Positions 2,388 through 41,712 of a stretch of DNA of 64,000 bases are shown one piece after another. The DNA lies in the NCBI GenBank assembly GCA_017469745.1, contig JAFUFS010000001.1, positions 50,581 to 114,580 of the forward strand, written 5' to 3'. Source of the DNA: Bacteroidales bacterium (GTDB lineage: Bacteria; Bacteroidota; Bacteroidia; Bacteroidales; UBA932). The first letter of the stretch is position 1. Each line of letters begins with the position of its first letter. Under the pieces are notes generated by a model, which was given only the letters and a program-made list of their open reading frames with translations, had not been told where the DNA came from and did not search any database. A program made the position numbers and the translations under genes.

Positions 2388-3835
2388 ATCTTGACCGGCT
2401 TGTACTTAGGGACGAGGATTCTCATTATTGTCCAGGCAAGAAGGTAAGCTATTCCGCAGAAGCAGAAAACAATGAAATAACCTGCGGGCTTTCCTTCAAA
2501 TCCAAGGAAGCGGAAAGCAGCACCTGCATTCTCTGCATAAGTGAACAGGTTGCCTGCCGCTTTCTGGATTATCATTGAACCGACACCTCCTGCCATCGCA
2601 CCTATCCCTGTGATAGTGGCAATCGCACCTTTAGGAAACATATCTCCTACTGTTGAGAATATATTCGCTGACCAAGCCTGATGTCCGGCGGCTGCCAAGC
2701 CGATAAGGACTGCAGGCCACCAAGGAGAATTGAAATGGACTCCCAAGGGTTGAGCGAATAAGGCGCAAAGAGGGAAGAATGCGAATATCAACATTGCCAG
2801 CATGCGTCCTGAATAGGGATGCATGCCTTTCTTTTCTACAAACAGTTTTGGAAGATAGCCTCCGAATATGGAGACGACTGTCACAATCAGGTAAAGAGTG
2901 AAAATCAGAGCCTGACCCTTGAATGATGTGGCAGGAGCGTTGAATTGGTTGCTGAAATACGAAGGAGCCCAGAATAGGAAGAACCACCAGACACCGTCTG
3001 TCATGAACTTTCCGACAATGAAAGACCAAGTCTGGCGATACTTGAAAGCTTGGATGAACGGGATTGACTTCTCCTGAGAGAGTGCAGCCTTTTCTGCAGC
3101 CTCTTCAGCATCATCCTGATGAATGTATTCCAGTTCAGCTTCATTTACATGCTTGCTGACTTCGGGTTTGTCGTACATGAAATCCCAGAAGAACATCCAG
3201 ATGAATCCAAGGCCACCGATAATGATGAATGCCCATTCCCAGCCAAGAGCCTTTGCCAGAGGTGGGATGCATAGGGGAGCCGCAAGGGCGCCCACTGAAG
3301 CACCGGCATTGAAGATTGAGGTAGCAAAAGCCCTGTCTTTCTTTGGGAAATACTCAGCAGTGACTTTTATCGCAGCAGGAAAGTTCCCCGATTCTCCCAG
3401 GGCGAGGATTCCACGGCATAGGAGGAACAGATACACTGAAGTAGTGGCAACTGCAAGTGCGGCATTGCTCCCTGCTTCCACTGCACGCATTGCGGCTACT
3501 GAGCCGAACCCACCAAGATGAGCGGTAGCCCATCCGCAGGCTGCATGCAGGACAGCTCCGGCGGACCATACTCCGATAGAAATCAAATATCCTTTTTTCG
3601 TGCCCATCCAGTCTACGAATTTGCCTGCAAAGAGGCATGCTATTGCGTAGAAAATAGAGAAAAAGGATGTGATGGTTCCGTAATTTGCATCAGACCAGTG
3701 GAACTCAGGTTTGATGAATTCCTCATAAGTCAAAGAAAGGACCTGGCGATCCAGATAATTAACGGTTGTGGCAACGAAGAGAAGGCTGCAAATCCACCAT
3801 CTCCAGTCAGTCATCAGCTTTTTCTGTGTTGACAT
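2384..3835 (-). CDS. MFS transporter, hexuronate (ExuT-like)
   Basis: A 483-residue major facilitator protein of the anion:cation symporter group, which includes glucuronate and galacturonate carriers. The N-terminus shows WWICSLLFVATTVNYLDRQ, a signature of ExuT-like transporters, and about 12 hydrophobic segments follow. LALGESGNFPAAIK in the first half is also typical. It is the last gene of the minus operon lacI-kdgK-eda-transporter and starts 1 base after the eda stop, so translational coupling is likely. The context says it imports the uronate or 2-keto-3-deoxy sugar that kdgK and eda consume. The exact substrate is inferred from neighbours. Confidence 0.88.
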   Translation of the reverse strand: MSTQKKLMTDWRWWICSLLFVATTVNYLDRQVLSLTYEEFIKPEFHWSDANYGTITSFFSIFYAIACLFAGKFVDWMGTKKGYLISIGVWSAGAVLHAACGWATAHLGGFGSVAAMRAVEAGSNAALAVATTSVYLFLLCRGILALGESGNFPAAIKVTAEYFPKKDRAFATSIFNAGASVGALAAPLCIPPLAKALGWEWAFIIIGGLGFIWMFFWDFMYDKPEVSKHVNEAELEYIHQDDAEEAAEKAALSQEKSIPFIQAFKYRQTWSFIVGKFMTDGVWWFFLFWAPSYFSNQFNAPATSFKGQALIFTLYLIVTVVSIFGGYLPKLFVEKKGMHPYSGRMLAMLIFAFFPLCALFAQPLGVHFNSPWWPAVLIGLAAAGHQAWSANIFSTVGDMFPKGAIATITGIGAMAGGVGSMIIQKAAGNLFTYAENAGAAFRFLGFEGKPAGYFIVFCFCGIAYLLAWTIMRILVPKYKPVKI

Positions 3836-3836
3836 G

Positions 3837-4502
3837 TTATTTCAATGATTTAATGATCTCTAGAGTTTCAGCGCATAATTGGGTGATCTTCCCCCATTCA
3901 CCAGCAGCAATCACATCTTTATGGAAAAGGTTGGAGCCCATCCCAACACAGGTTACACCTGCTTTGAACCATGCCTCAAGGTTTTCCCGGGTAGGTTTAA
4001 CTCCTCCTGTGACCATGAGCTGGCTCCATGGCATAGGGGCCTTGATACCTTTTACAAAGGCAGGTCCAAGTACATCCCCAGGAAAGACTTTGCAGATGTC
4101 GCATCCGGCTTCCTGGGCAGTTCCGATCTCACTCGGAGTCGCACAACCAGGGCAGTAGGGGATGAGCCTTCGGTTACAGACCGGAGCTACCTCGGGATTG
4201 AAAAGAGGCCCGACTACAAAGTTGGCTCCAAGTTGAATGTACATTACAGCTGTGGCTGGATCTATTACTGAACCGACACCTACGATCATTCCAGGGAGTT
4301 CTTCAACCGAGAACTTAACAAGTTCTCCGAAAACTTCCTGAGCGAAATCTCCTCGGTTTGTAAACTCGAAAACCCTGACACCCCCTTCGTAGCAAGCCTT
4401 CAGGACCTTCTTGGAAGTCTCGGGATCTGCGTTGTAGAAGACGGGAACCATGCCCGTCTCTTTCATTGTCTGGATGACTTGTAACTTAGTATATTTTGCC
4501 AT
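3837..4502 (-). CDS. eda: KDPG/KHG aldolase
   Basis: 2-Keto-3-deoxy-6-phosphogluconate aldolase, which splits KDPG into pyruvate and glyceraldehyde 3-phosphate. It is a 221-residue class I aldolase of the usual family length. Glu46 in VFEFTNRG and Lys138 in [11 protein letters not shown] sit at the positions of the catalytic Glu and Schiff-base Lys. The phosphate-binding region ([19 protein letters not shown]) is intact. It follows kdgK after a 94-base gap that holds an imperfect inverted pair of the short dispersed repeat. It supplies the last step of uronate catabolism in this locus. Confidence 0.93.
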
Positions 4503-4525
4503 ATAAAAACGTTATTTGTGTTTTC

Positions 4526-4580
4526 TGTCATCCTGAGGCTTGCCGAAGAATATAGATTCTTCGCTTTGCTCAGAATGACA
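4526..4580 (-). repeat. Short dispersed repeat, inverted pair (copy a)
   Basis: Two copies of the short repeat (core GATTCTTCGCTTTGCTCAG and its complement) face each other and form an imperfect palindrome of about 55 bases, centred near 4553. It lies in the transcribed gap between kdgK and eda, so the RNA could form a long hairpin. That might act as a processing, stability or attenuation element; this is inference. Confidence 0.75.
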
Positions 4581-4596
4581 CAATTCGGAGCGACAC

Positions 4597-5637
4597 CTAG
4601 CGGGAGACTCTGCCAGAGCCGTCGCCATTCATAAGGTTCTCGACCTCGTCCACGGTGACCTGATTGAAATCTCCAAAAACAGTATGTTTCAAGCAGGAGG
4701 CCGCGACAGCGAAGTTGAGGGCCTTCTGATCATCTCCTTCATATGTAAGCAATCCGTAGATAAGACCTCCCATGAAACTGTCTCCGCCGCCTACACGGTC
4801 CACGATGTGAGTAATATCATAACGCGGTGATTGCCAGAGTGTCTTTCCGTCCCAGAGGACGCCACCCCAAGTGTTGTGGTTGGCATTGATTGAGCCACGC
4901 AAAGTAATTATTACCTTTTTTGCACGAGGGAATCTGGTCATCAACTGCTCTCCTACGCTCTGGAACCTTTTCTGATCAATAGCGCCACCGGTGGCGGTCA
5001 CTTCGAAACCTTCTGGTTTGATGCCAAAGACTTTTTCTGCATCTTCTTCATTTCCCAGAATGATATCGCAACCTTCAACGAGTGCGGGCATGACTTCGGA
5101 AGCTTTCTTGCCGTATTTCCATAGATTTTTACGGTAGTTGAGGTCGCAGGAGACAGTGACTCCCCGGCGGTTCGCGGCCTTTATGGCTTCAAGACAGACA
5201 TCTGCAGCTCCTTGGCTGATGGCGGGAGTTATTCCCGTCCAATGGAACCAGTCTGCTCCGTCGAACACCTTGTCCCAGTCAATCATCCCGGTCTCGATAG
5301 TAGAAATAGCCGAGTGTGCCCTGTCGTATACAACCTTGCTGGGACGAGCAACAGCTCCGGTTTCAAGGAAATATATTCCTAGGCGTTCACCTCCGAAGAT
5401 ACAGAAGTCTGTGTTGACTCCGTATGAATGGAGGTCGCGGATGCAGCTCTTTGCAATATCATTGTCCGGGAATCGGGTGACGAATTGAACGTCTATCCCG
5501 TAATTGGCAAGGGAAACTGCAACGTTAGCCTCGCCTCCACCGAAAGTGGCGTCGTATTGTCTGGCTTGCGAGAATCGAAGGTAGCCAGGAGTGGACAACC
5601 GGAGCATGATTTCTCCGAAAGTGATTACTCTCTTCAT
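4597..5637 (-). CDS. kdgK: 2-keto-3-deoxygluconate kinase (PfkB family)
   Basis: Sugar kinase that phosphorylates 2-keto-3-deoxygluconate to KDPG with ATP. It is a 346-residue ribokinase/PfkB fold protein. The N-terminus (VITFGEIMLRLSTPG) and GGGEANVAVSLANYG are typical of KDG kinases. The C-terminal PfkB signature DRVGGGDSFMGGL carries the catalytic Asp of the GGGD motif. It begins 12 bases after the lacI stop and is second in the operon. It acts directly before eda. KDG kinase is favoured over fructokinase because of the uronate neighbours. Confidence 0.9.
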   Translation of the reverse strand: MKRVITFGEIMLRLSTPGYLRFSQARQYDATFGGGEANVAVSLANYGIDVQFVTRFPDNDIAKSCIRDLHSYGVNTDFCIFGGERLGIYFLETGAVARPSKVVYDRAHSAISTIETGMIDWDKVFDGADWFHWTGITPAISQGAADVCLEAIKAANRRGVTVSCDLNYRKNLWKYGKKASEVMPALVEGCDIILGNEEDAEKVFGIKPEGFEVTATGGAIDQKRFQSVGEQLMTRFPRAKKVIITLRGSINANHNTWGGVLWDGKTLWQSPRYDITHIVDRVGGGDSFMGGLIYGLLTYEGDDQKALNFAVAASCLKHTVFGDFNQVTVDEVENLMNGDGSGRVSR

Positions 5638-34279: not shown

Positions 34280-34326
34280 CCTGACCCTTTTTTGAAAACT
34301 CTACAATAACTCTATATCACCCCCTC

Positions 34327-34361
34327 CAGAGTGGCCTGCATTACCGATGCGGGCCACTCTG
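34327..34361 (+). terminator. Hairpin terminator after the M28 gene
   Basis: A perfect 10-bp stem (CAGAGTGGCC and GGCCACTCTG) with a 15-base loop, followed by a T-rich stretch (TTTCTCTACAACTTTTT). It lies 47 bases after the M28 stop. Confidence 0.7.
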
Positions 34362-34426
34362 TTTCTCTACAACTTTTTGATTTTAGAGCAAATATTCTTA
34401 TCATTACATCAATAATAACGCTCTAT

Positions 34427-35092
34427 ATGGGACTCTTCGACATATTCTCAAGGAAGAAAGCGGACAATCTGATCGGCAGCATGGACAAGCTTCTGGGCAT
34501 CGTGGATCATTCCCTGCTGGTTTTCCGCGACGGTGTTAAGAATTACCTCTACAGGGATGAATCCGGCTTCATAGAGAACCTCACTTCCATGGCATCCCTG
34601 GAGACCGAGGCCGGTGCCATCATCCGTGAAATTGAGAGCACACTTTACTCGAGGGGTTACCTGATCCGCTCCCGCGGAGACATCATGCGTCTCCTCGAAC
34701 GTTTCGACCACATCATTTCCATTATCAGCGTCGACCTTGTCCAGTTCGAGATAGAGACTCCGAAAGTCCCCGACGAGCTCCGGCGCGAGTTCGTGAAGCT
34801 CAGTGAACTGGCATCGCTTGCAGTCGAGAGCACAATCCCTGGCGCGAAGGCTTATTTTACTCAGCCAGGAGACGTGGCTGAAACGACCGACAGGGTCTAT
34901 TTTTATGAAAAGGAAGCGGTCAAGCTTTCACAGTCGATCAAGCGCACAGTTTTCCACAACATGGTCAACGACCTCAAGCTCAGTGAAAAATTCCATCTCC
35001 GCTACTTCGCCCTTCACATAGAGGATCTTGCCAAGGCGGCGGTGAAGGTAGCGGAGCAGCTTTCGGTCATGGCAATCAAGCGGTCTTTGTAA
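34427..35092 (+). CDS. DUF47 (PhoU-like) family protein
   Basis: A 221-residue all-helical protein of the DUF47/PhoU-like family, which usually sits next to a PiT phosphate transporter and is thought to regulate it. The start MGLFDIFSRKKADN is typical of the family and decides 34427 over an earlier in-frame codon. It ends six bases before the following membrane protein gene, so the two are an operon. In most genomes a PiT transporter would follow here; instead the next gene encodes a membrane protein with a DNA-binding tail. Confidence 0.85.
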   Translation: MGLFDIFSRKKADNLIGSMDKLLGIVDHSLLVFRDGVKNYLYRDESGFIENLTSMASLETEAGAIIREIESTLYSRGYLIRSRGDIMRLLERFDHIISIISVDLVQFEIETPKVPDELRREFVKLSELASLAVESTIPGAKAYFTQPGDVAETTDRVYFYEKEAVKLSQSIKRTVFHNMVNDLKLSEKFHLRYFALHIEDLAKAAVKVAEQLSVMAIKRSL

Positions 35093-35098
35093 AGAATC

Positions 35099-36715
35099 AT
35101 GGGAGCCTACCTGTACATCATAGCATCCATCCTTCTGGCAGGATCGCTGACCGTCCTCCGTGATCTCCCGGTGGTGAACGGCAGCATTCTTGCCTCCGGA
35201 GCCGGGGAGCGGTTGTCAGTCAGGTACCTTTGGCCCATCCTGATGCTTTTCTGTCTTGTCCTTCCTTTATTTATAGATTATTCTCCTGTTTCAGACACTG
35301 CTTCGGGCCTTTTCGCCCCGGATTCGGCAGGAGTTGTCCTTCCCATAGGACTGGCCACGGCAGGAGCGTCTCTGATTGCAGGATTATTCTGCCGTTACCC
35401 GGCTGTACCTTATGCTTTCATAGCGTCACTGGCGGGAGTGTCTCTTGCCTTGACCGGTAGCATCAGCCCTTCTACAGGCTGTTCATATATTCTTTCATGG
35501 GTGGCTGCACCTTTACTTTGTGCCCTTCTGGCTGGAGGTTTTTACAGGCTCTATGCATTGTCCCTGCGTAACCGGACAATCCATCTCGCAATCCTGGATG
35601 CAAGGCTGCAGGGTGTTTCCATCCTGGCCTCCTTCCTGCTCCTGGCCGCATATTCATTGAACAATTCTATCCTTTTCACATACATTACCAAGGCGGCACC
35701 TGTTTCCGATGCGTTCAGGGCAAGCATCGCGGCCGGGTGCGCCCTTGTCCTTTATCCGTTCATGCACAAGGAAGTCTCAATGGCTACTTGGAACCTGGCG
35801 GATTATGACCTGGACATCAATGCCCAGTCCATTTCTTCCGTAATCATTTCCATGGCAGCGGTTTTGCTCCTCTTCACATCTCCGCTTCCCGCCTTTGCCG
35901 GAATGGCTGCGACTCCGCTTCCTGTCGGATTGTTGTTCATTGCCGCCCTTTATGGAATCAGCGTCGCCCGGCAGCGAGCCCTGGTGCTTGGCCAGGAGAT
36001 ATTGAAGACTCTGGCAGCGTCAATCCTGTCTCCGGTCCTTGCCCTGATGTTCGCCTATTGCCTTGTGAAGGTTATGGACGGTACACCGGCGGGGACTGTC
36101 TTCGTCCTTGTCCTGGTCTTCCTCATCGCCGGAGGAGTCTTTTTCTTCCGCTGGCAGACGGGCAAGGACCTGCAGAAACAGATCCTCCGCTCCCGCGAGC
36201 AGCAGGTCTATTCCACCCAGAAGTCCCTTTCCGCCCTGGAGGTCAAGGCCGAAATGACCGAAAAGGACCTTTTGAACAAGCTTGATCTCAAGCGCAAGGA
36301 ACTGGTGGATTTCGCTCTCAACATCGGAGACCAGAAGAAGTTCATGGAACAGTTCTACGAGGATCTGAGCATAGTCCGCTCTCTGCCGGACGGCGAGGAG
36401 AAGGACGCCAGGACAGACAAACTTCTGTCTTCGCTCCGTGAAAGGATGTACTTCACACGGGAAATCAATGACTTCTACGCCCGAAGCGAAGTACTTCACA
36501 GGGACTTCAACCTCCGCCTTTCGGAGGCCTATCCCAATCTCACTGAAAATGAAAAGAAGCTTGCCAACCTGCTGCGCCAGGGCTTTTCCAGCAAGTACAT
36601 AGCTTCCCTTATGAATATAACCCCTAAAAGTGTCGAGATCAACCGCTACCGTCTGCGCTCCAAACTGGGGCTCAACCGGAGCGACAATCTTATAAAGTTT
36701 ATCAAATCCATATAG
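35099..36715 (+). CDS. Polytopic membrane protein (degenerate PiT-like) with C-terminal LuxR-type HTH
   Basis: A 538-residue protein with about ten hydrophobic segments (residues 1-355), a coiled-coil linker (about 360-430) and a LuxR-type helix-turn-helix (481-538, with SSKYIASLMNITPKSVEINR). The tail matches the HTH end of Bacteroidota regulators. The membrane part has weak likeness to PiT phosphate carriers: SWVAAPLLCALLAGGFYRL at 133-151, and NN at 188-189 where PiT has Asn-Asp. The first PiT motif is largely lost. With DUF47 upstream and an OprP porin downstream, a phosphate-sensing regulator is plausible. The HTH is certain; the PiT origin is inference. Confidence 0.6.
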   Translation: MGAYLYIIASILLAGSLTVLRDLPVVNGSILASGAGERLSVRYLWPILMLFCLVLPLFIDYSPVSDTASGLFAPDSAGVVLPIGLATAGASLIAGLFCRYPAVPYAFIASLAGVSLALTGSISPSTGCSYILSWVAAPLLCALLAGGFYRLYALSLRNRTIHLAILDARLQGVSILASFLLLAAYSLNNSILFTYITKAAPVSDAFRASIAAGCALVLYPFMHKEVSMATWNLADYDLDINAQSISSVIISMAAVLLLFTSPLPAFAGMAATPLPVGLLFIAALYGISVARQRALVLGQEILKTLAASILSPVLALMFAYCLVKVMDGTPAGTVFVLVLVFLIAGGVFFFRWQTGKDLQKQILRSREQQVYSTQKSLSALEVKAEMTEKDLLNKLDLKRKELVDFALNIGDQKKFMEQFYEDLSIVRSLPDGEEKDARTDKLLSSLRERMYFTREINDFYARSEVLHRDFNLRLSEAYPNLTENEKKLANLLRQGFSSKYIASLMNITPKSVEINRYRLRSKLGLNRSDNLIKFIKSI

Positions 36716-36737: not shown

Positions 36738-38108
36738 ATGCGTAAAATACCTTTCATAATCGCGTTGTTGCTGCTGGCAGTGCCTGCAGCCCTCGCCCAG
36801 AAACAGACGGTCAAGTACAATCAGTACGGAGTGGCTGTCCAATCCGACCGCCTGGATGTAGAGGCACAGGACGGAATCCTGGTTCTCGAGTCTCCTAATT
36901 CGGGCTACAAACTATGGTTCGACATCCGTGCCCAGGCAGACGGTGCCGTGTTCTTCGGGGCTCCCGACTACGCCGACAAGATCGGTAACGGAGTTCAGAT
37001 CCGCCGCGCCCGTTTCGCTGTCAAGGGCCAGATCGATGAGAATTGGTACGGAGAGTTCGACATGGACCTTGCGAATGGTCTGGCGGAATTGAAAGACGCC
37101 ATCGTCCGCTATACCGGTGTCAAGTATCTCGATCTCCAGGTCGGTAACTTCAAGGAGAATTTCTCGATCCAGAGGAACACTACATCCCGTTACCTCCAAT
37201 TCATGGAGCGCCCCATGGTCTGTTCCGCATTGTCTCCTTCCCGTCATCTCGGAATCAACGCCAAATACGCCAAGGATTGGATTTGGTTCTCAGCCGGTGC
37301 TTTCTCACAGGTCATAGCCGGGGCAGAGGAATGGACCAACGTCGCTGACAACAACAAGGACTTCGGCCGCAATTCAGGATACTCCCTGACCACCAAGCTG
37401 GTCTTCCGTCCTCTTTACAAGCTGGACAATGCCAGCCTGCACATCGGTGCCGCATATTCCTATCGCACCACCACCACCGACCTGGCGACAGGCGAGTGGG
37501 GTACTTACCGTGCCAGCGCCCGCAACTCCACTTCCATCAACCGCAAGAAGTACATTGACACCAACAACCTTCCCGGATTCGACCACAACAACCTCTGGAC
37601 GGCCGAGCTTGCCGGTCACTGGAACGGTCTCCGTTACGAGGCTGCCTACATCGGTGACAATGTCCATTTCAAACCGGATGCAGCTGATCCTGAGACTAAG
37701 AACTTCGGTGGCTGGTACGTCCAGGCCGGTTACCTTCTCTTCGGCGGAAAGCAGCGCTATGATGCCAACGGTGGCAAGTACACCAAGATCCAGCGTGGAC
37801 GCGACTGGGGTGACATTGAACTCTGCGCCCGCTATGAGACTTGCGACCTCAATTTCGGCAATGTCTACGGCGGCGCCTCCGAGGCCTATGCCCTGGGACT
37901 CAACTGGTGGGTGAACAACAACGTCAAGATGCAGCTCAACTATCAGTTCAACAACAACGACCGCTATGCTAACGGCAAGGACAAGCTGAATGTTGGCTTG
38001 GATTCTGCAGGCAAGCCTACCAAGGACTACAAGAAGGTCGTTGCTGCTGATGGAAAGGCCGGTGTCGACTACCACATGCTTGCCCTTCGTTTCGAAATCG
38101 ACTTCTAG
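36738..38108 (+). CDS. OprP/OprO-type (phosphate-selective) porin
   Basis: A 456-residue outer-membrane beta-barrel with a signal peptide ending near ALAQ. The segments RIRRARF-like (IRRARFAVKGQID), YGEFDMDLANG, LQVGNFKENFSI and a C-terminal aromatic residue (RFEIDF) fit the phosphate-selective porin O/P family. It starts 22 bases after the PiT-like/LuxR gene and would supply outer-membrane passage of phosphate or polyphosphate. Specificity is inferred from the family and the DUF47 context. It is not a SusC protein: it lacks a plug domain and is too short. Confidence 0.82.
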   Translation: MRKIPFIIALLLLAVPAALAQKQTVKYNQYGVAVQSDRLDVEAQDGILVLESPNSGYKLWFDIRAQADGAVFFGAPDYADKIGNGVQIRRARFAVKGQIDENWYGEFDMDLANGLAELKDAIVRYTGVKYLDLQVGNFKENFSIQRNTTSRYLQFMERPMVCSALSPSRHLGINAKYAKDWIWFSAGAFSQVIAGAEEWTNVADNNKDFGRNSGYSLTTKLVFRPLYKLDNASLHIGAAYSYRTTTTDLATGEWGTYRASARNSTSINRKKYIDTNNLPGFDHNNLWTAELAGHWNGLRYEAAYIGDNVHFKPDAADPETKNFGGWYVQAGYLLFGGKQRYDANGGKYTKIQRGRDWGDIELCARYETCDLNFGNVYGGASEAYALGLNWWVNNNVKMQLNYQFNNNDRYANGKDKLNVGLDSAGKPTKDYKKVVAADGKAGVDYHMLALRFEIDF

Positions 38109-38133: not shown

Positions 38134-38958
38134 ATGAAAAAGATATTCTTTATTTCTGCAGCAGTCCTTCTGGCACTCACCGGATGCGTGAAAGACGAAA
38201 TCTACAAGGGCCCTTCGACAATCGAGAAAGTGGTCTTCAGCCCGGAGGCTCCGACCTCCATAGCTCCTGTCCAGGTGACTGCCACCGTGACAGGCCTTCA
38301 GGCCGTGACTTCCGCCACCCTTAACTACAATGGCGGAACCGTGACCATGAGCGGATCAGGAACCAGTTTCACCGCAACTATCCCTGCAATGGCTGACGGA
38401 ACCGAGGTCAGCTTTACGGTTGTTGTCAACAATGATGCAGGTTTCACCACCACTTCGGACAAATATTCCTACAAGGTAGGCGACCCTGCAACCGACTGGA
38501 GCAAACTCAAGCTCAACGAGGTCTACGGCGCCGGTGCCGACGAGGAGAAATTCTTCGAGCTCTACAACGCCAGCGACTATCCTATCAAGCTCACCGGTGT
38601 CACCATCAGCAAGGACGAGTCCAACTGCTGGACCGGAATCGACGGCGAGGTCGTGCCTGCCAAGGGCTTCTTCGCCATTGTCGGTGGAAAGGGAACTACT
38701 CCCAGAGGATTCTCAAGCGGCTTCTCCGCCAAGAAGAGCGTCCTGATCGAGCTGTTCGACACCAAGGGCAACAAGATTGACTATTTCCAGAGAGGTGAGA
38801 AGATGGATTCCGGCGAATGGGGTGCATCGCTCTCCAACAACAAGGGTTCCTGGAGCCGTATTCCTGACGGAAGCGGAAAGTGGATGCAGACAGATGCTTT
38901 CACTCCCGGCGCAGCCAACTCAAAGGATGGTAAGGAAGATCCTGATGTAAAACAATAA
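38134..38958 (+). CDS. Lamin-tail domain lipoprotein
   Basis: A 274-residue lipoprotein (lipobox LALTGC). Residues about 30-120 are Ig-like beta sequence; residues about 130-265 form a lamin-tail domain (LKLNEVYGAGADEEKFFELYN, given as bases 38508-38570, then PIKLTGVTISK and FTPGAANSKDG at the end). Lamin-tail domains occur in secreted nucleases and phosphatases and may bind surfaces. It lies 25 bases after the porin gene. The role is unknown; with the porin it may capture a phosphorylated substrate at the surface. Confidence 0.75.
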   Translation: MKKIFFISAAVLLALTGCVKDEIYKGPSTIEKVVFSPEAPTSIAPVQVTATVTGLQAVTSATLNYNGGTVTMSGSGTSFTATIPAMADGTEVSFTVVVNNDAGFTTTSDKYSYKVGDPATDWSKLKLNEVYGAGADEEKFFELYNASDYPIKLTGVTISKDESNCWTGIDGEVVPAKGFFAIVGGKGTTPRGFSSGFSAKKSVLIELFDTKGNKIDYFQRGEKMDSGEWGASLSNNKGSWSRIPDGSGKWMQTDAFTPGAANSKDGKEDPDVKQ

Positions 38959-38979: not shown

Positions 38980-39618
38980 ATGGCAGAACTTAAAATCGGC
39001 GAGCAGAGCAAGCCTCGCTTTGAATTCCGCAGCTTCGGTCAGTGCTTCTGCGAAGCACACAAGAGAATGGCACGTCTTTCCGTCCCCGTCCCCGAGAAGG
39101 TCTGGGAGAGGGAGAGTGATGAGATCTACATCATCTCATCCAAGAACGACATCAACAACACCAAGATCCGTAACGGCAAGATGGACATCAAGACCTATGT
39201 CCAGACTGTCGATGGTCTCGAGCAGTGGAATCCTCTCATGAAGGGTGAATTCCCCATCTCCCGCGAAGTGCTTGAGAAAGAAGTCTTCCCTGCCTTCATG
39301 GTCGAGATGCCTGCCCTCACCAAGGACACATACACCTACGAAGAGTTTATCGCCATGGTCAAGGCCAATCCTGACCTTGCCGCCGTCCGCGTCCACAAGC
39401 AGCGCTTCGGCTACATGGTCAACGACACTATCTGCGAGGTGGGCAATGTGCTCATCAACGGTGCCAAGGTCGTGACCATCAATTCCGAATCCACCGAGAT
39501 CGAGGACATCAAGAAGACCATCGCCGACTGCGGCCTCGAAGGAGTCGAGAACATCAACTACCTCCAGGCTATCAAGAGGGTTATCGGCATGATTGACAAA
39601 CCTTTAGCAAACGAATAA
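38980..39618 (+). CDS. Conserved protein, possible divergent CYTH/triphosphate-tunnel fold
   Basis: A 212-residue cytoplasmic protein with no signal peptide. I do not recognise a named family. The N-terminal half has alternating strands with charged residues (FEFRSFGQ, EIYIISSKNDINNTKIRNGK, DIKTYVQ) that resemble the beta-tunnel of CYTH enzymes. The adjoining gene, four bases on, is a clear CYTH protein. A related pair of tunnel proteins acting on tri- or polyphosphate is possible but unproven. Confidence 0.4.
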   Translation: MAELKIGEQSKPRFEFRSFGQCFCEAHKRMARLSVPVPEKVWERESDEIYIISSKNDINNTKIRNGKMDIKTYVQTVDGLEQWNPLMKGEFPISREVLEKEVFPAFMVEMPALTKDTYTYEEFIAMVKANPDLAAVRVHKQRFGYMVNDTICEVGNVLINGAKVVTINSESTEIEDIKKTIADCGLEGVENINYLQAIKRVIGMIDKPLANE

Positions 39619-39622
39619 GAAT

Positions 39623-40099
39623 ATGGCTCAGGAAATAGAAAAGAAATTCTTGGTCAAGGGAGACTTCAAGAACGAGGCCTTCAAGGCCACACGTATCACC
39701 CAGGGTTACCTCAGCAGCGTTCCCGAGAGGACAGTCCGCATCAGGGTGAAGGGTGACAAAGGTTTCATCACTGTCAAGGGAATAGGCAACGCCTCCGGCG
39801 CTTCCCGTTTCGAGTGGGAGAAGGAAATCCCCGTGGACGAGGTGAAGGCCCTTCTCGACCTCGCCGAGCCCGGCGTTATCGACAAGACCCGCTACTTGGT
39901 GAAGAACACCGACGGCAAGCACACTTGGGAAGTTGACGAGTTCTACGGCGACAACGACGGCCTGACCGTCGCCGAGGTGGAGCTCGCAGACGAGAACGAG
40001 CCCTTCGACAAGCCTGAGTGGCTGGGCGAAGAGGTCACCGGCGATCCCAAGTACTTCAATTCAATGTTGATGAAGAACCCTTATAAGAACTGGAAGTAA
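39623..40099 (+). CDS. CYTH domain triphosphatase
   Basis: A 158-residue triphosphate tunnel metalloenzyme. The ExExK motif is at the start (EIEKKFLV), followed by paired basic and acidic strands (RTVRIRVKGDKGFITVKG, FEWEKEIP, EVDEFYG, AEVELADENE). This short class hydrolyses inorganic tripolyphosphate or similar substrates; cyclase activity is less likely. It starts four bases after the previous gene and two bases before the next, so it is part of a tight operon with a phosphate theme. Confidence 0.88.
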   Translation: MAQEIEKKFLVKGDFKNEAFKATRITQGYLSSVPERTVRIRVKGDKGFITVKGIGNASGASRFEWEKEIPVDEVKALLDLAEPGVIDKTRYLVKNTDGKHTWEVDEFYGDNDGLTVAEVELADENEPFDKPEWLGEEVTGDPKYFNSMLMKNPYKNWK

Positions 40100-40101
40100 C
40101 C

Positions 40102-41712
40102 ATGGCAGCAGATATCGGGACAAAGGCGGCTCCGGCATTCGACCCGCTGGACATGAACAACTACAAGATCGAGAAACTGCCTAAGATGCAGAAATCCAAA
40201 TTCGAGATCTGGATGGCTCGTCTGGGCGGTCCTTTGGCGATAGTCGCCTTTGTCTGGATATGCTGGTTCTGCCACATAGGCTTCATCGACAACATAGACC
40301 AGAGCGGCCTTGCCGCCACCGCGCAGAAGCGGCTCGGCGTACTCGGCCTCGATGGTTTCATCCGCGCCAACTATGCAATGCTGGCGATCTTCGTGGCGAG
40401 CCTCATCCTCTGGATGACCGAGGCCCTGCCCAATTATCTCACATCCCTCCTGCTGATCCTGGGTGTGGTCCTTTTCAACGTGACCACCCAGAAGGAGGCC
40501 CTGGCCCAGCTCGGCCACCCTGTGATGTGGCTGAACATACTGAGTTTCGTGCTGGCCTCCATGCTGGTCAAGACCCAGTTTGCCAAGCGACTGGCCCTGG
40601 CCTTCGTGATCAAGTTCGGAAAAAGCGCTAAGGGAGTGCTCTGGAGTTTCCTGGTGATCAACCTTGTGCTGTCGGCCTTCATCTCGGCTACCACGGTCAA
40701 GGCTACCATCATGCTCCCGATATTCATGGTGATCTGCGCCATCTACGGAGCATCTGACGGCCACCGCAACAACTTCGGCCGCAACCTCGTGATCCAGAAC
40801 CTGTTCCAGGTCAACATCGGAGCCAACGCCTTCTACACCGGGTCCGGCGCCCACCTGCTTGCGATCTCCCTGATCGCCGGCTTCCTCGGCTCCTGCGATT
40901 TCGGTTATGCAGACTGGCTGATCGCCGTAGGCCCCATGAGCGTCATAATCCTGATCGTGGGCCTGCTGGTGGGGATGTATATCTTCTTCCCGATGAAAAA
41001 GGACGAGCAGAAGCCCCAGATCGAGGGAGGAATAGAAAGACTGAAAGTGGAGCTCGACGCAATGGGCAAGATGAGCGCCCAGGAATGGAGAGCCGTCTGC
41101 ATATTCCTTGTCGTCCTCTTCCTCTGGGTCACGAAGGGCACCTTCCATAACATCGACGAGACCATCGTCGCTTTGATCGGAGCCTGCCTTGCCTTGCTTC
41201 CGGGAATAGGAGTGGTGAAGTGGAACGACGTGGACATCCCCTGGCACCTGATGCTCTTCTCTGCCGGAGCCTATGTCCTTGGAAGCGGCCTCAATGCCAC
41301 AGACCTTCCCAACACGATGGTCAATGCGGCCTTCGATTCCATGGGCATCACTTCCGGAACACCTTACTGGGTCCTGTACGTGATCCTGACCTTCCTGATG
41401 ATGTATTCAGGACTGGTGTTCCAGAGCAAGACCATCCGCACGATGGTGTTCGTGCCGATCGCCCTGGGAGTCGAGCAGCGTTTCGGCTTCATGCCCATGA
41501 GCCTTGCCCTTCCGGTCTCTATGCTCATCGAGCACTGCTACGTGCTGCCTTTCAACAGCAAGCCGGCGGCCTTGCTTTACAACACCAACCAGTACAGCCA
41601 GACTGATGCCTTCAAGTTCGGCATCACCATGATGACTTTCAGCTGGCTGCTTATCCTTCTGTTCGGCCAGACCGTCCTTAAGTGGCTGAGCATTACTCCA
41701 GGTTTGTTTTAA
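40102..41712 (+). CDS. DASS/SLC13-family sodium:anion symporter
   Basis: A 536-residue inner-membrane transporter of the divalent anion:Na+ symporter family, with about 12 hydrophobic segments. VLSAFISATTVKATIMLPIF corresponds to the first ion and substrate clamp, though the family Ser-Asn-Thr is Ser-Ala-Thr-Thr here. Family members carry dicarboxylates, sulfate or phosphate. The start is two bases after the CYTH stop. Given its neighbours a phosphate-type anion is plausible, but a dicarboxylate cannot be excluded. Confidence 0.82.
   Translation: MAADIGTKAAPAFDPLDMNNYKIEKLPKMQKSKFEIWMARLGGPLAIVAFVWICWFCHIGFIDNIDQSGLAATAQKRLGVLGLDGFIRANYAMLAIFVASLILWMTEALPNYLTSLLLILGVVLFNVTTQKEALAQLGHPVMWLNILSFVLASMLVKTQFAKRLALAFVIKFGKSAKGVLWSFLVINLVLSAFISATTVKATIMLPIFMVICAIYGASDGHRNNFGRNLVIQNLFQVNIGANAFYTGSGAHLLAISLIAGFLGSCDFGYADWLIAVGPMSVIILIVGLLVGMYIFFPMKKDEQKPQIEGGIERLKVELDAMGKMSAQEWRAVCIFLVVLFLWVTKGTFHNIDETIVALIGACLALLPGIGVVKWNDVDIPWHLMLFSAGAYVLGSGLNATDLPNTMVNAAFDSMGITSGTPYWVLYVILTFLMMYSGLVFQSKTIRTMVFVPIALGVEQRFGFMPMSLALPVSMLIEHCYVLPFNSKPAALLYNTNQYSQTDAFKFGITMMTFSWLLILLFGQTVLKWLSITPGLF

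Follow-up and report, generated by a model that had tools for sequence, protein, structure and literature searches.

A PiT-derived membrane protein with a LuxR-type tail, encoded beside DUF47, as a candidate membrane-anchored regulator in Bacteroidales

Introduction

Can a phosphate transporter give up transport and serve as a membrane-bound regulator of genes? This question is raised by one gene in a 64,000-nucleotide stretch of DNA (here called the window) from an uncultured gut bacterium of the order Bacteroidales (assembly of 2.38 Mb in 66 contigs). A sequence-only reading had described its product as a membrane protein with PiT-like features and a LuxR-type helix-turn-helix (HTH), lying between a DUF47/PhoU-like gene and an OprP-type porin gene, and had proposed that a transporter had lost transport and become a sensor controlling phosphate genes from the membrane. 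Here, the protein, its neighbors, and its upstream DNA were compared with those of relatives. Loci compared are named L### and genomes G###, with G000 denoting the window's own genome.

Results

Architecture of the protein and its operon

The PiT-LuxR gene at 35099-36715 (+) is an intact open reading frame of 538 codons. From N to C terminus, the protein runs from a PiT-derived membrane domain through one additional transmembrane helix and a coiled-coil-like stretch to a LuxR HTH. The features of the gene and its operon are as follows.

34427..35092, + strand: DUF47/PitR-like gene, 221 aa from the start common to relatives (PF01865 at cut-off)
35099..36715, + strand: gene for the eroded PiT domain, coiled coil, and LuxR HTH, 538 aa (Pfam, PDB profile match, hhalign)
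35099..36076, + strand: PiT-derived membrane domain, residues 1-326 (hhalign for residues 75-326; N-terminal part by alignment with fusions)
36092..36148, + strand: extra transmembrane segment, residues 332-350, at the junction of PiT core and tail (hydropathy)
36152..36508, + strand: linker resembling a coiled coil, residues ~352-470 (modeled as long helices at low confidence; kept in orthologs)
36536..36691, + strand: LuxR/GerE HTH, residues 480-531 (PF00196, 29.9 bits)
36738..38108, + strand: OprO/P-type porin gene (PF07396, E 2e-43)
38134..38958, + strand: Lamin-tail-domain protein, conserved operon member (PF00932)
38980..39618, + strand: conserved 212-aa protein, operon member (no Pfam match)
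39623..40099, + strand: CYTH-domain protein, operon member (PF01928)
40102..41712, + strand: SLC13-type symporter gene, conserved neighbor (PF00939)

A simple Kyte-Doolittle script found ten hydrophobic segments, in agreement with the earlier estimate of about ten. The GerE match exceeded its Pfam cut-off of 23.5 bits and coincided with the HTH previously placed at residues 481 to 538. With ten hydrophobic segments and a C-terminal GerE domain, the protein has the architecture of the 10-12-TM LuxR proteins. The extra hydrophobic segment is strong in the profiled fusions (residues 332-350 in the window protein, 373-391 in L156), and tail-less L175, L183, and L101 (344-376 aa) end without it. 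Such a helix would help to put the HTH on the cytoplasmic side, where the tail presumably lies. By eye, a segment of this kind was also seen, without an HTH, in two longer tail-less PiTs (L171 and L181); the L171 PiT gene is followed by a gene for a GAF/PAS-domain protein (2757-4631), another possible output. An AlphaFold model from the window protein and four relatives (five sequences only) had a pLDDT of 50.6 and is given no weight in judging the fold.

Both immediate neighbors were as the sequence-only reading had described them. The DUF47 gene directly upstream scored 24.4 bits against PF01865, exactly at the cut-off of 24.4; its open reading frame is listed from 34331 (GTG), and the start common to relatives is 34427. 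Directly downstream, the Porin_O_P gene scored 149 bits. The 212-aa protein adjoins a CYTH gene in many loci.

PiT origin of the membrane domain

Scored alone, the window protein reached 12.3 bits against PHO4 (PF01384), below the cut-off of 33.7, and its genome contained no PHO4 match at E≤0.001. Pfam otherwise matched the membrane part only to DUF6526, below threshold (E 0.036). An ortholog in G028 did exceed the PHO4 cut-off, with 44 bits summed over its stretches in frame. A profile of 24 family members found the PiT structure 6L85 as its best PDB match (E 2e-6), and hhalign of the family alignment (A2) against a PiT alignment (A3) gave 98.2% with an E value of 3e-14 over 242 columns. Related fusions L145 and L156 matched PHO4 at E 1e-56 and 4.9e-58 (193 and 197 bits), respectively; L156 passes the GerE cut-off, and L145 is below it (19.9 versus 23.5). 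The stretch previously singled out as PiT-like, SWVAAPLLCALLAGGFYRL, has a counterpart, SWVSGPLLGMLFAAGLFVL, in L156, a clear PiT-LuxR relative. These comparisons matched the membrane part to PiT and to nothing else convincingly, and the PiT-like character proposed for it holds. As judged by homology, the membrane domain of the window protein is the descendant of a PiT phosphate transporter.

Conservation and distribution of the fusion

The gene occupies the same place in 27 of the 28 loci compared, which is more than chance would give. The set includes some redundant loci and was drawn from the window, its genus, and named records; the 28th (L099) encodes a DUF47-LuxR protein. The five named records with the protein are from uncultured Bacteroidia/Bacteroidales, three of them from reindeer, water buffalo rumen, and roe deer omasum. 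Conservation of the DUF47 adjacency in relatives, on which the earlier proposal depended, was found in all 24 loci in which the upstream side could be judged (this side was excluded for L010 and L034, which begin at the gene, and for L031, which has a run of N) and in the 25 PiT-LuxR loci of the order described below. The porin gene lies directly downstream in 27/27. An apparent 711-aa DUF47-regulator fusion in L031 was rejected as an artifact that spans the run of N.

Within the genus, 16 of the 45 genomes (own included) have a DUF47 gene, and the same 16 have the tail, which is fused to DUF47 in G043 and is part of the PiT-derived protein in the other 15. The other 29 genomes, with several assemblies incomplete, gave no DUF47 match. 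Across the order, the DUF47 profile matched 44 places in 43 of 393 genomes. The 42 order loci analyzed (40 plus L100 and L101; the DUF47 place in G347 was left out) comprise, by profile, 25 PiT-LuxR genes, 12 tail-less PiT genes, two eroded forms with the tail (L146 and L100), and three loci cut by contig ends (L160, L169, and L182), which take no class from their own locus. The rest of the L160 gene, tail included, is on another contig of G447. Of the 25 PiT-LuxR proteins, 24 match the 584-position model end to end, one of them (G147) having an internal stop, and the porin gene is next in 21 of the 25 loci. Among the 25, the PiT-LuxR gene at L149 (4490-6307) has an in-frame stop, reflecting decay or an assembly error.

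Outside the order, two loci in a class sample of 395 genomes passed E 1e-30: a fusion matched end to end (L194) and a PiT without the tail (L195); the remaining matches among those listed were to the tail only. A phylum sample of 395 genomes matched the PiT domain without the tail in 12 genomes, and none of the 11 loci inspected (the place in G930 was left out) had a tail. The model scans for end-to-end fusions and of both samples scored no more than three candidates per genome, and absences are accordingly soft. Elsewhere in the phylum, L196-L204 are PiTs by DUF47 and porin genes with a different C-terminal extension of ~140 residues and without the LuxR tail.

Erosion of the transport site and inverted constraint

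PiT transporters carry a signature of two Asn-Asp type motifs and two P-x-S-x-x-[HQ] elements. The same elements were read from the alignments made here; they are eroded in the window's family, and all four are degraded in the window protein. At 11 signature positions, an identical residue set was found in 22/24 readable fusions and 10/12 tail-less PiTs (L149 enters this table by its second piece only and counts for the last three positions). The signature is eroded in 14 sequences of the window's family, L146 included, and in L100. An acidic residue aligned to the Asp of the first motif and the Asn of the second motif are kept in 13 of these 14, with the first-motif alignment uncertain, such that some ion or ligand binding could remain. 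The sequence-only reading had taken both Asn-Asp motifs to be degraded, citing NN at residues 188-189. Most of the signature is indeed lost in the family, but NN by itself does not indicate decay: GANN stands at that place in intact relatives too, tailed as well as tail-less.

Constraint on the two halves of the protein is inverted. The tail is more conserved than the membrane part in 231/231 pairs within the window's family, compared to 27/253 pairs among other fusions. Where DUF47 identity is ~58 to 60%, mean membrane and tail identities are 21% and 48% in the window's family and 53% and 37% in other fusions; where DUF47 keeps 51 to 58% in the window's family, the membrane part averages 19 to 21%. 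(Both comparisons leave out L010, L034, L096-L098, L100, and L168; the mean identities also leave out L149.)

The eroded motifs and the inverted constraint support the loss of transport that had been proposed, and the window protein would presumably no longer transport. Its genome has two NptA-type phosphate transporter genes, and Pst-like permeases only below cut-off, such that loss of PiT transport would be tolerable. Tailed relatives with intact motifs probably still transport, as transporter-receptors. The term "transceptor," previously applied to the window protein, fits these relatives better than it fits the window protein.

A series of living relatives

In L099, DUF47 and GerE are joined in one 322-aa protein in which both domains are above their Pfam cut-offs and no hydrophobic segment is present; by eye, the gene that follows starts like the porin. 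Hydrophobic segments in the group of L099 number 11 in L091, 10 in L096, 7 in L097 and L098, and 0 in L099, and the seven profiled family members with a membrane part have 7 to 11. In a DUF47 tree, the window's family, L146, and L099 form one starred group of 26 rows (100/98), and this eroded group is joined to a fusion group, 46 rows in all (100/96). Outside the 46-row group, the remaining fusions are intermixed with the tail-less rows on long branches that leave their order uncertain, and L100 stands apart on a very long branch. With rows of both kinds intermingled at its base, the tree does not settle the direction of tail gain or loss. The relatives suggest a series, from an apparently working transporter with a tail, through a worn-out form that would act as a regulator alone, to one without the membrane part, and with it a way in which a nutrient pump could become a gene switch.

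CTCTACA boxes track the tail

Upstream of the DUF47 gene are short repeats and a promoter-like site.

34299..34305, + strand: CTCTACA box 1, candidate operator, kept upstream of the DUF47 gene
34310..34316, + strand: CTCTATA box 2, 11 bp after box 1; the 11-bp pair is recurrent in the family
34365..34371, + strand: CTCTACA box 3, 66 bp past box 1 and 55 bp past box 2, immediately preceding the promoter-like site
34377..34404, + strand: promoter-like TTGATT-N16-TATCAT (one match versus a shuffle mean of 0.4; weak alone)

CTCTACA-like boxes upstream of DUF47 are kept in the window and its 11 nearest relatives. Boxes 1 and 2 together read CTCTACAN4CTCTA, which occurs exactly once in the genome; a double box with one mismatch occurs at two more places, compared to 25 for the reversed control, and a wider regulon in the genome was rejected. 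Of the 23 upstream regions in the window's family, 15 had the 11-bp pair, against a shuffle mean of 0.03. Exact CTCTACA was present in 19/23 regions of the window's family (L099 included) and 13/23 of the fusions, against a shuffle mean of 0.4 each, and in 0/12 tail-less loci. Spacings between boxes cluster near 11, 55, and 66 bp for the window's family; for the fusions, the clusters are at 42 to 43, 54 to 56, and 96 to 98 bp.

At least two boxes within one mismatch precede the DUF47 gene in 46/50 tailed loci, compared to 0/24 tail-less loci and 10/548 other upstream regions. Counted among the 46 are every one of the 22 eroded loci in the window's family, 21/23 fusions, and L194, L149, and L160; the tailed loci without two boxes are L165, L170, L100, and L099. 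The 24 tail-less loci are the 12 of the order and L195-L206, seven of which 24 have a single box. The 548 background regions precede all open reading frames of at least 180 aa in tailed and unclassed loci, spurious frames included. The count excludes L169 and L182 (cut by contig ends, neither with a box), L066, L096, L097, and L161 (too little upstream sequence), L010 and L034 (without a DUF47 gene), and L031 (a near copy). Fisher's test on the counts gave a P value of 1e-15, which is no true probability, since the motif was noticed in some of the counted sequences and the loci are related, so that counts are not independent.

The association was also seen at close range. In G188, boxes are present at a tailed locus and missing from a tail-less one, and in family f62, boxes occur in tailed L162 and L168 and not in tail-less L166. 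L194, from another order, has two boxes 56 bp apart; it and L195, both examined after the motif was fixed, behaved as predicted. Neither of the NptA-type gene loci contained an exact CTCTACA, and the two Pst-like loci contained one, on the reverse strand in L190. The boxes upstream of the protein's own operon lend support to the suggestion that it would control phosphate genes.

Between boxes 2 and 3 is a terminator-like hairpin (34327-34361), and in several relatives, a GC-rich hairpin of different bases was seen by eye in the same place. Elsewhere in the genome, at L080 (G000:C7), a TPR-like transmembrane LuxR paralog is encoded next to a SusC-like gene; this locus has a pair of exact CTCTACA boxes spaced by 33 bp, followed some 56 bp later by another CTCTAC (4556-4660). 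Members of this tail family may in general use CTCTAC repeats as operators.

Discussion

We consider it likely that the window protein is a membrane-anchored one-component regulator derived from PiT, with transport lost, input from DUF47, and autoregulation of its operon through CTCTACA boxes. Homology, operon conservation, motif erosion, constraint inversion, and the association of boxes with the tail were computed; DNA binding, autoregulation, phosphate as the signal, DUF47 as the sensor, a cytoplasmic position of the tail, and the absence of transport are inferred. In the form that many relatives of the order still have, a PiT encoded beside DUF47/PitR bears the extra transmembrane helix, the coiled coil, and the LuxR HTH, and an intact fusion of this kind could both carry phosphate and report on phosphate to DNA. 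The window's family would have lost the transport site together with the constraint on it, keeping DUF47 and the membrane-held LuxR tail. The tail most likely binds the CTCTACA repeats, which precede the DUF47 gene in helical phase, and would control its own operon (DUF47, the regulator, the OprO/P-type porin, and the following genes). DUF47 is the most likely point of entry for the signal, which would be phosphate or a phosphate-dependent state, and together with the tail it most likely makes up the core for sensing and output at the membrane.

Where the signal enters is the point on which one alternative turns. The eroded membrane domain might itself be the sensor, a reshaped phosphate or ligand site signaling through the last helix and the coiled coil to the HTH. 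The 7 to 11 hydrophobic segments of the seven profiled members and the acidic residue and Asn kept in 13/14 eroded sequences are consistent with such a role, but DUF47 and the tail are both better conserved than the membrane part (which has 19 to 21% identity where DUF47 has 51 to 58%), and L099 has no membrane part at all. We regard a membrane-domain sensor as unlikely, with DUF47 the better conserved candidate. Very unlikely is a protein that still transports through an altered site, with the tail only tuning its own expression. It does occupy the usual PiT position, and its intact-motif tailed relatives probably transport; against this, each of the four signature elements is degraded, the membrane part is under relaxed constraint, and the two NptA-type genes give another uptake route.

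The ligand might also be sulfate or another oxyanion, with the domain coming from a CysP-like branch. The NCBIfam sulfate permease model CysP matched the window protein (E 1e-5) and six of seven relatives scanned (E 1e-17 to 1e-28), all below cut-off, and both GANN and the replacement of His by Gln are as in CysP-like relatives. The DUF47/PitR neighbor, the OprO/P-type porin, and the CYTH protein instead indicate phosphate, which we favor as ligand on their account, keeping sulfate as a serious contender; according to PMC13170248, 97.8% of PitR-bearing genomes also have PitA. A CysP-branch origin with such a ligand is distinctly improbable. We are similarly doubtful that the boxes are the operator of a different regulator, the tail acting elsewhere or not at all: boxes do not name their binder, and a TPR-LuxR paralog also lies beside CTCTAC repeats, but the boxes track the tail (46/50 versus 0/24), even within G188 and family f62.

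Beyond the window's own regulator, a wider picture is offered tentatively, as one slightly short of evenly balanced: many members of the order would couple phosphate uptake and transcription in one PiT-LuxR protein that replaces PhoR/PhoB, and the window's lineage would have passed from transporter to transporter-receptor to membrane regulator and, in one species, to DUF47-LuxR. PiT-LuxR is a testable candidate for phosphate regulation in Bacteroidota. The stages of a change from transporter to regulator can be compared in living relatives, together with a matching DNA element, and DUF47 signaling becomes testable where one relative (L099) joins DUF47 straight to an HTH.

No PiT-LuxR protein was found among the listings of an open-access library, in keeping with the sequence-only reading, which knew of none described, and no paper on a bacterial PiT structure was listed there. 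Transporter domains with regulatory outputs (PMC7918813 and PMC9734109) and the pairing of PitR/DUF47 with PitA (PMC13170248) are already known, as far as the consulted portions of these papers extend. In Staphylococcus aureus, PitR (DUF47) modulates a phosphate-responsive system, and its gene is adjacent to the PiT gene, as here; the signal there goes to the PhoPR two-component system, whereas in the window, the LuxR HTH is on the transporter chain itself (PMC13170248, in part). The same excerpt lists Bacteroidota among taxa with genomes in which PhoPR was not found.

The 10-12-TM LuxR proteins of Coriobacteriia, such as DadR of Eggerthella lenta, share a polytopic N terminus, a LuxR HTH, and control of neighboring genes (PMC9734109). 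They are likened to the window protein by architecture alone; the characterized members respond to catechols, and the sections of that paper used here mention no PiT origin or DUF47 partner. In CbrA and related SSS-transporter sensor kinases, a transporter domain is likewise joined to a regulatory output, but the output is a histidine kinase and the transporter is of the SSS type, in place of LuxR HTH and PiT; CbrA without its membrane part still activates a target when highly expressed (PMC7918813, in the extract consulted). A further comparison is in the same genome, where a TPR-TM-coiled-coil-LuxR protein (G000:C7) has a homologous tail (37% identity over residues 383-536) with CTCTAC repeats nearby. 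Its input is TPR-like (by eye), and it is encoded beside SusC/SusD-like genes, whereas the input of the window protein is transporter derived.
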